A DNA stretch of 64,000 bases from the NCBI GenBank assembly GCA_027049035.1, contig JALTVI010000107.1:144889-208888 (forward strand), written 5' to 3'. Made by a program: the position numbers and the translations under genes. A model generated the notes under the pieces. It did no database searches. It saw only the letters and a list, made by a program, of their open reading frames with translations, and was not told the DNA's origin. Of this stretch, positions 37,045 through 54,340 are shown in pieces. Numbering within the stretch: the first letter of the stretch is position 1; the number at the start of each line of letters is the position of its first letter. The DNA is from Sulfurovum sp. Its GTDB lineage: Bacteria; Campylobacterota; Campylobacteria; Campylobacterales; Sulfurovaceae.

Positions 37045-37500
37045 TTACGCTTCCTCCTGTGCTTTCATGGCCTTGTACTGTTTGAGTGCAGCCTGCATAG
37101 AGTCGGGGTCGGGTATCTTACGCCCGGCAATGTAGCCGATAATATTTCCCTCTTCATCGAATTTCGGTTTGATCCATACAACGACCAGGTAGTATTTCCC
37201 TTCTGATGTCATATTCTTGACATAGCCTTCCCAGTAGTTTCCGCCTTTGATCGTGTCCCACATGCCTTTGAAAGCCGCTTTTGGCATATCAGGATGTCGG
37301 TTGATATTGTGCGGTGAGCCGATAAGCTCCTCTTTGCTGTAGCCTGTCAGTTCACGGAACTTTCTGTTGGCATAGGTGATAATACCGGCAGGATCGGTTT
37401 CGGTAATCATGACACCGCCGTCAAAGGGTACCTCTTCATCGACCGGATCCGGCTTGGTGATCTCTTTGCCTGTAATGATATTTTTAATGGTTCGGCCCAT
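37045..37500 (-). CDS. Aer/CetB-type single PAS-domain protein
   Basis: A 151-residue PAS protein. The Aer-like signature is clear: ANRKFRELTGYSKEELIG, then NRHPDMPKAAFKGMWDTIK and WEGYVKNMTSEGKYYLVVV. Such PAS domains usually bind FAD and sense redox state. In Campylobacter the homologous CetB works with a separate membrane CetA for energy taxis. No HAMP or signalling domain is attached and no CetA partner is next to it. A GEMM-I riboswitch lies in its leader, linking it to cyclic dinucleotide level. Confidence 0.87.
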   Translation of the reverse strand: MGRTIKNIITGKEITKPDPVDEEVPFDGGVMITETDPAGIITYANRKFRELTGYSKEELIGSPHNINRHPDMPKAAFKGMWDTIKGGNYWEGYVKNMTSEGKYYLVVVWIKPKFDEEGNIIGYIAGRKIPDPDSMQAALKQYKAMKAQEEA

Positions 37501-37550: not shown

Positions 37551-37635
37551 CAGCATGGTATCGGTAACCTGGCGATCCCTTGCAGGACCCATGGCTTTCC
37601 GTCCCCGCCTCTCGACAGGTTTGGCTTTTCTATTT
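37551..37635 (-). ncRNA. GEMM-I riboswitch (c-di-GMP type)
   Basis: Minus strand, 5' to 3': AGCCAAACC, then a hairpin closed by the GNRA tetraloop GAGA, then GGGACGGAAAGCC, a second arm, and finally GCCAGGTTACCGAT. This matches the GEMM-I aptamer core in order and spacing (AAACC, GNRA hairpin, GGACG-AAAGCC, GGTTACCG), as in the Vibrio Vc2 RNA. The 3' end is about 50 nt before the PAS ATG. Most members bind c-di-GMP; a subgroup binds cGAMP, and I cannot decide from one sequence. Confidence 0.85.
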
Positions 37636-37655
37636 CATTATGATAACTTCTTATA

Positions 37656-37661
37656 ATTATA
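37656..37661 (-). promoter_or_regulatory. -10 element for the riboswitch-PAS transcript
   Basis: Minus strand GATGCTATAATTATAAG, extended -10 with predicted start near 37649, about a dozen bases before the aptamer core begins. Confidence 0.65.
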
Positions 37662-53560: not shown

Positions 53561-53647
53561 TGGTGCGGATGAGAGGACTCGAACCTCCACGGGATTGCTC
53601 CCACTAGAACCTGAATCTAGCGCGTCTACCAATTCCGCCACATCCGC
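53561..53647 (-). tRNA. tRNA-Leu (CAG)
   Basis: Acceptor GCGGATG/CATCCGC, anticodon arm CTAGA-TTCAGGT-TCTAG, long variable arm typical of Leu, T loop GTTCGAGTC, CCA encoded. Last in the array by transcription. Confidence 0.95.
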
Positions 53648-53667
53648 ATAACAATAAGAGAAAAAAG

Positions 53668-53744
53668 TGGCGCGGCGGACGAGACTCGAACTCGCGACCC
53701 CCTGCGTGACAGGCAGGTATTCTAACCAACTGAACTACCGCCGC
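53668..53744 (-). tRNA. tRNA-Asp (GTC), copy 1
   Basis: Acceptor GCGGCGG, anticodon arm CCTGC-CTGTCAC-GCAGG, discriminator G, CCA encoded. Same sequence as the copy at 54175. Confidence 0.95.
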
Positions 53745-53798
53745 ACCGTAACCTTGAAAGGTTGAAAAGAATTGTATCTAAAAAAAATAAAGATACGA

Positions 53799-53874
53799 TG
53801 GTGGTCGCTACAAGACTCGAACTTGTGACATCTACCTTGTAAGGGTAGCGCTCTACCAACTGAGCTAAGCGACC
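53799..53874 (-). tRNA. tRNA-Val (TAC), copy 1
   Basis: Acceptor GGTCGCT, anticodon arm CTACC-CTTACAA-GGTAG, CCA encoded. Same sequence as the copy at 53984. Confidence 0.95.
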
Positions 53875-53879
53875 GAAAA

Positions 53880-53955
53880 TGGCGACCCCTAGAGGATTTG
53901 AACCTCTGTGACTACGATGAAAACGTAGCATCCTTGGCCACTAGATGAAAGGGTC
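53880..53955 (-). tRNA. tRNA-Glu (TTC)
   Basis: Acceptor GACCCTT/AGGGGTC, anticodon arm CTACG-TTTTCAT-CGTAG, CCA encoded. A plausible substrate of MnmH (30007). Confidence 0.95.
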
Positions 53956-53983
53956 ATCTAGATCCAAACAGTCACACAAAATA

Positions 53984-54059
53984 TGGTGGTCGCTACAAGA
54001 CTCGAACTTGTGACATCTACCTTGTAAGGGTAGCGCTCTACCAACTGAGCTAAGCGACC
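53984..54059 (-). tRNA. tRNA-Val (TAC), copy 2
   Basis: Same sequence as copy 1, CCA encoded. Confidence 0.95.
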
Positions 54060-54078
54060 AACGGAGTGATTGTTTTGG

Positions 54079-54154
54079 TGGTGACCCGTCTAGGATTCGA
54101 ACCTAGGGCCCACTCCTTAAAAGGGAGTTGCTCTACCGACTGAGCTAACGGGTC
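54079..54154 (-). tRNA. tRNA-Lys (TTT), copy 1
   Basis: Acceptor GACCCGT/ACGGGTC, anticodon arm ACTCC-CTTTTAA-GGAGT, CCA encoded. A plausible substrate of MnmH. Confidence 0.95.
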
Positions 54155-54174
54155 ACGGTAAAAAAGTGTTGTAA

Positions 54175-54251
54175 TGGCGCGGCGGACGAGACTCGAACTC
54201 GCGACCCCCTGCGTGACAGGCAGGTATTCTAACCAACTGAACTACCGCCGC
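54175..54251 (-). tRNA. tRNA-Asp (GTC), copy 2
   Basis: Same sequence as copy 1, CCA encoded. Confidence 0.95.
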
Positions 54252-54264
54252 ACATTACGAATGG

Positions 54265-54340
54265 TGGTGACCCGTCTAGGATTCGAACCTAGGGCCCACT
54301 CCTTAAAAGGGAGTTGCTCTACCGACTGAGCTAACGGGTC
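54265..54340 (-). tRNA. tRNA-Lys (TTT), copy 2
   Basis: Same sequence as copy 1, CCA encoded. First in the array by transcription. Confidence 0.95.

Follow-up and report, generated by a model that had tools for sequence, protein, structure and literature searches.

A c-di-GMP-I riboswitch in the leader of an orphan Aer-type PAS gene in non-flagellated Sulfurovum

A stretch of 64,000 nucleotides of Sulfurovum sp. DNA, hereafter the window, carries a leader in which a first-pass annotation had recognized a GEMM-I riboswitch in front of an Aer/CetB-type PAS gene. That arrangement was taken to place an energy-taxis sensor under direct control of a cyclic dinucleotide and to link motility choice to the level of a second messenger. 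The locus raises the question of whether the element is a genuine riboswitch, which ligand it would sense, in which direction it would act, and what a taxis-type sensor would report to in this genus. The reading that we favor, and hold to be reasonably probable as a whole, is that a standalone Aer-type (FAD-binding) PAS protein of a non-flagellated Sulfurovum is encoded by a monocistronic gene under a c-di-GMP-I riboswitch that lies in its 5′ leader and acts as an ON switch, and that the protein signals to c-di-GMP or phosphorelay proteins, which would form a feedback loop. The features of the locus are listed in Table 1.

Table 1. Features of the riboswitch leader and PAS gene (window coordinates).
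Feature	Position	Strand	Basis
Extended -10 promoter element TGCTATAAT, containing TATAAT (37661-37656)	37664-37656	-	Sequence
GEMM-I/c-di-GMP-I riboswitch aptamer	37634-37559	-	Rfam covariance models
Aptamer core, part 1 GCCAAACC	37625-37618	-	Sequence
Vc2 G20 equivalent (ligand-class base), G	37625	-	Alignments to Rfam consensus and own aptamers
Hairpin with GAGA (GNRA) tetraloop (37613-37610)	37619-37604	-	Sequence and covariation
Aptamer core, part 2 GGACGGAAAGCC	37604-37593	-	Sequence
Vc2 A47 equivalent (base between two guanines), A	37598	-	Alignments
Aptamer core, part 3 GGTTACCGAT	37569-37560	-	Sequence
Vc2 C92 equivalent, C	37564	-	Rfam consensus alignment
Anti-aptamer arm GCTTTCTTTGGTT	37551-37539	-	ViennaRNA folding
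U-tract TCTTTTTC 3′ of the anti-aptamer arm (candidate intrinsic terminator)	37537-37530	-	Sequence and layout of relatives
Ribosome binding site (RBS) AAAGGA	37513-37508	-	Sequence
Standalone Aer-type PAS protein (151 aa), predicted FAD-binding redox/energy sensor	37500-37045	-	PF08447/PF00989, 8dik

Covariance searches of the minus strand recovered the aptamer above the curated thresholds of two Rfam families, with 63.7 bits for RF01051 (gathering threshold of 35; E value of 3.7e-12, genome-wide) and 61.9 bits for RF03167 (cut-off of 59; E value of 3.3e-12, whole window), while no GEMM-I match was obtained in 14 control genomes. All elements named in the first-pass annotation are present on this strand, including the perfect TATAAT upstream of the aptamer, which is part of an extended -10 element. 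Our own covariance model, R1, gave 83.8 bits, a score that is high by construction. In an alignment of 37 Campylobacterota aptamers taken from the same genome and related ones, 11 of the 19 pairs showed double compensatory changes, which backs the two helices and GNRA tetraloop that characterize RF01051. This covariation of the fold, together with the recurrence of the aptamer before 24 PAS-ortholog genes, excludes a chance origin. The element shares with Vibrio cholerae Vc2/Vc1 (RF01051) the fold, the GNRA tetraloop, the G20/A47/C92 triad, and the position in a 5′ leader, but differs from them in a C21-G46 pair in place of G21-C46, a four-A junction, a very weak P1, and its target, a standalone Aer-type PAS gene. 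As a riboswitch, the element is an ordinary representative of a described class, one that any Rfam scan would pick up, whereas an orphan Aer-type PAS is an unusual target for that class.

The link between riboswitch and PAS gene recurs in related genomes. With a covariance model built from the 37 aptamers, an aptamer was found 56 to 185 nt upstream of the PAS gene in 23 of 78 PAS-encoding loci, in addition to the window. When loci that end too near the gene and five distant paralogs are left out, GEMM-I lies just upstream of 24 of the 72 testable PAS orthologs, window included; an aptamer at L118, 741 nt upstream, and a match at L074, which scored 20 bits and lay on the wrong strand, were excluded from this linked set. 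The riboswitch is absent upstream of the other 48, and the link is therefore not essential. On the PAS tree, nearly all riboswitch-bearing orthologs fall within its Sulfurovum portion, and none of the Hydrogenimonas and Nitratiruptor orthologs has a GEMM-I aptamer upstream, although metH flanks the PAS gene there too. A search with filters off returned no degenerate aptamer remnants at the riboswitch-less orthologs. A decayed aptamer was recognized before one ortholog (L061, 2355-2431; 37 bits), with the core GAATGCAAAG and a broken 21-46 pair. Given this patchy presence, the lack of remnants, and the decayed copy, the riboswitch was therefore gained or lost several times at one place.

Transcription of the window leader probably starts near position 37649, about 7 nt downstream of the extended -10 element. 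The same element occurs in seven other leaders (L046, L047, L048, L049, L050, L057, and L061), and close relatives have kept both promoter and spacing; a consensus promoter scan that requires a -35 box missed the window element. The aptamer is separated from the ATG at 37500 by a 58-nt spacer, in which the GCTTTC of the anti-aptamer arm can pair with GGAAAGC of the core (37600-37594) and TTTGGTT with the 5′ AGCCAAA. In the ligand-free ViennaRNA fold, the GGAAAGC-GCUUUC pairing has a probability of about 0.86 and is also present in the minimum free energy structure, and the AGCCAAA-UUUGGUU pairing stands directly 5′ of UCUUUUUC. A simple terminator scan made no call in this leader, and the candidate terminator is based on folding and on relatives: the competing stem of L048 reaches -34.5 kcal/mol and ends right at UUUUUC, and the same stem/U-tract layout is found with other sequences in L050 and L046, more clearly than in the window. 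Over 20 PAS leaders, spacer-aptamer pairing went beyond that of dinucleotide shuffles (mean z of -1.66), with the window by itself weakly beyond chance (z of -1.5; 9% of shuffles equally good) and several leaders, mostly those with long spacers, showing no excess. Expression platforms vary among orthologs, and the U-tract is absent in several. Since the aptamer and the competing fold are mutually exclusive, the simplest model would be that c-di-GMP prevents termination. Without c-di-GMP, the spacer would pair with the aptamer core next to the U-tract and transcription would stop early; bound c-di-GMP would hold the core, block the anti-aptamer/terminator fold, and allow read-through. The PAS gene would then be switched on together with the adhesin and secretion genes that belong to its regulon.

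The PAS gene is monocistronic, and its product matches PF08447 (6e-14) and PF00989, with E. coli Aer (8dik) as the closest solved structure (E value of 7.8e-25). The residues that contact or bind FAD in Aer, i.e., H53, R57, H58, D60, W70, N85, and R115 (PMC9668731, PMC2628428), all have conserved equivalents in the window protein according to the 8dik alignment. The protein thus carries the FAD-type PAS residues of an Aer/CetB sensor and is predicted to be a flavin-binding redox sensor. Five further standalone Aer-type PAS proteins are encoded in the same genome, along with a 686-aa protein (L155, 859-2919, contig C15) in which an Aer-type PAS is fused to a C-terminal region where HD-GYP motifs (HD...HHE..DG.GYP) were recognized by eye rather than by Pfam, a possible direct tie of this type of PAS to c-di-GMP breakdown. 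Other Aer-type PAS genes of the genome have as neighbors a gene for an Hpt-like protein and a kinase/REC cluster. In another Sulfurovum (L035, 1501-2615), a GEMM-I aptamer lies 69 nt upstream of a different Aer-type PAS gene, whose operon continues with a roadblock-like gene and a SixA-like gene. The paralog fusion, these neighbors, and the L035 operon point, circumstantially, to c-di-GMP or phosphorelay (two-component) proteins as the partners of the PAS, which may report redox or respiratory state to them rather than to flagella and so close a feedback loop.

Several other explanations of the locus have to be weighed. The bases G20, A47, and C92, which contact the ligand in c-di-GMP-I riboswitches and whose importance is documented (PMC4744006), are all retained in the window aptamer. 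Within the binding region, a single change is present, C21-G46 for G21-C46, which preserves the pair and is invariant in the 37 aptamers. In cGAMP-sensing GEMM-Ib riboswitches, Vc2 position 20 is an A; the equivalent base, singled out in the first-pass annotation as the mark of ligand class, is a G here and in all 37 aptamers, and the G20-A47-C92 triad therefore predicts c-di-GMP over cGAMP. Of 19 GGDEF domains in the genome, the 14 with a readable motif all carry Asp, none having the Ser of Hypr enzymes, and five were not resolved. As a separate observation, one GGDEF frame (L131, C43:28281-28760) is broken by a single in-frame TAG and may be a pseudogene or an assembly error. We regard a variant ligand class, either cGAMP or an unassigned "GGC" variant, as very unlikely and rejected it on positions 47 and 20 and the GGDEF motifs. 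The swapped 21-46 pair speaks for such a variant, as does the family label, shown as RF03167 (c-di-GMP-I-GGC) because the clan overlap is settled by E value; by bit score, however, RF01051 ranks above RF03167, whose cut-off is just exceeded, and the RF03167 consensus has a G where the window has a mismatched A at position 47, a criterion that we infer from the family name. The "GGC" label is, as judged from this alignment, model overlap. That the aptamer is a decaying or non-functional relic is highly improbable: P1 is almost without pairing (two mismatches marked in the Rfam alignment) and decay has occurred at L061, but a short P1 is common among the aptamers of the set, all core bases and helices of the window copy are intact, and its promoter and spacing have been kept in close relatives.

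The direction and mode of the switch (transcription or translation) are inferred from modeled folds, and an OFF switch or translational control, in which the bound aptamer would lower PAS expression through the RBS or through a terminator formed in the bound state only, is a serious though rather unlikely alternative. It draws on C. difficile Cd1, a GEMM-I OFF switch cited in PMC4744006. In addition, three other aptamers of the genome (L004, L006, and L007) lie merely 22 to 33 nt before their genes, spacers too short for a terminator, and the RBS is predicted to be less open with a locked aptamer in 12 of 20 folded PAS leaders, window included (0.59 to 0.41). Accessibility of the RBS showed no consistent direction of change across the 20 leaders, and RBS sequestration was rejected as a general mechanism, although the P2 region had looked complementary to the RBS by eye. 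Against an OFF switch, the mutually exclusive partner of the aptamer precedes a U-tract in the window clade, and expression of co-regulated surface and adhesin genes is expected to go up with c-di-GMP. The ON switch remains our preferred model. As for its product, the proposed energy-taxis (Aer/CetB) sensor under c-di-GMP control finds some footing in the Aer-like PAS with its FAD residues and in Campylobacter jejuni CetB, likewise a standalone PAS (PMC2628428). However, the genome, which is 99.8% complete, contains no MCP-signaling domain, in cis with HAMP or in a CetA-like partner, and no FlhA. Among 24 sampled congeners, no FlhA match exceeded the cut-off and a single MCP match was found, in one 75%-complete genome, in line with a published account that Sulfurovum and Nitratifractor have lost flagella and chemosensory genes (PMC9321776). 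With no detectable chemoreceptor or FlhA genes, the PAS is therefore not an energy-taxis sensor for motility, and the link to motility choice falls with it. The Aer-like part of the original description stands, but a CetB-type function is unsupported because it needs the chemoreceptor CetA, which was not found. The taxis reading, rejected after these searches, is scarcely credible.

The PAS gene is one of the genes behind the eight GEMM-I aptamers of this genome, the others encoding an Ig/P-domain surface protein, a LysM-NlpC/P60 enzyme, an outer-membrane barrel, a ShlB/FhaC transporter, a rhodanese-like protein, and two secreted proteins that matched no Pfam family above the cut-off; a weak match of the L006 product to a centromere protein was below the cut-off and was disregarded. 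Judged by their predicted products, the targets are mostly adhesin, secretion, wall, and outer-membrane genes, and the PAS sensor more likely belongs to a surface-attachment regulon. GEMM-I was detected in 22 of 24 sampled Sulfurovum congeners, with up to 18 aptamers per genome (2 to 18 in most), and in 43 of the 397 Campylobacterota genomes sampled, spread over 13 of 68 genera; these phylum-wide counts are lower bounds owing to strict filters. The statement that such riboswitches have seldom been described in Campylobacterota holds for the open papers searched, none of which was found to connect Sulfurovum, riboswitches, and c-di-GMP, but it does not reflect this spread or the very high density in Sulfurovum.

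A taxis-type gene under a c-di-GMP-I riboswitch is already known from Bc1-mcpE of the Bacillus cereus group (PMC11218506), which likewise precedes a taxis-type sensory gene and has a terminator-based expression platform comparable to the candidate platform in the window; its target is a real chemoreceptor, whereas no chemotaxis system was detected in the Sulfurovum genome. The window PAS resembles C. jejuni CetB (PMC2628428) and E. coli Aer (8dik) in its Aer-type fold and FAD-contact residues and CetB in being standalone, but its genome lacks a CetA/HAMP/MCP partner and detectable flagellar genes. What is new is how large the regulon is in a vent genus without flagella, and that the linkage of the riboswitch to an orphan Aer-type PAS gene has been conserved. 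Sulfurovum is a dominant genus of vent biofilms in which c-di-GMP cannot work through stopping flagella, and its dense regulon yields a set of attachment genes that can be tested and couples a predicted redox sensor with the second messenger. We put forward tentatively, as a rather doubtful scenario, that an energy-sensing PAS predating the loss of chemotaxis, at its old place beside metH, was recruited into the c-di-GMP riboswitch regulon of sessile Sulfurovum, where it would close a feedback loop between redox state and c-di-GMP that serves attachment. Should the PAS indeed act back on c-di-GMP enzymes, a taxis-type sensor would have been reused in a lineage that lost taxis.

Tandem GEMM-I aptamers about 10 to 80 nt apart were seen in several congeners (L019 1364-1578, G013:C56:83229-83471, G001:C74:9245-9465, G003:C1:792094-792319, and G015:C1:356375-356583), those of L019 preceding a lipoprotein-like gene with a Golvesin domain. 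Elsewhere in the window, positions 53561-54340 hold a cluster of eight tRNA genes in which Val-TAC, Asp-GTC, and Lys-TTT are duplicated.
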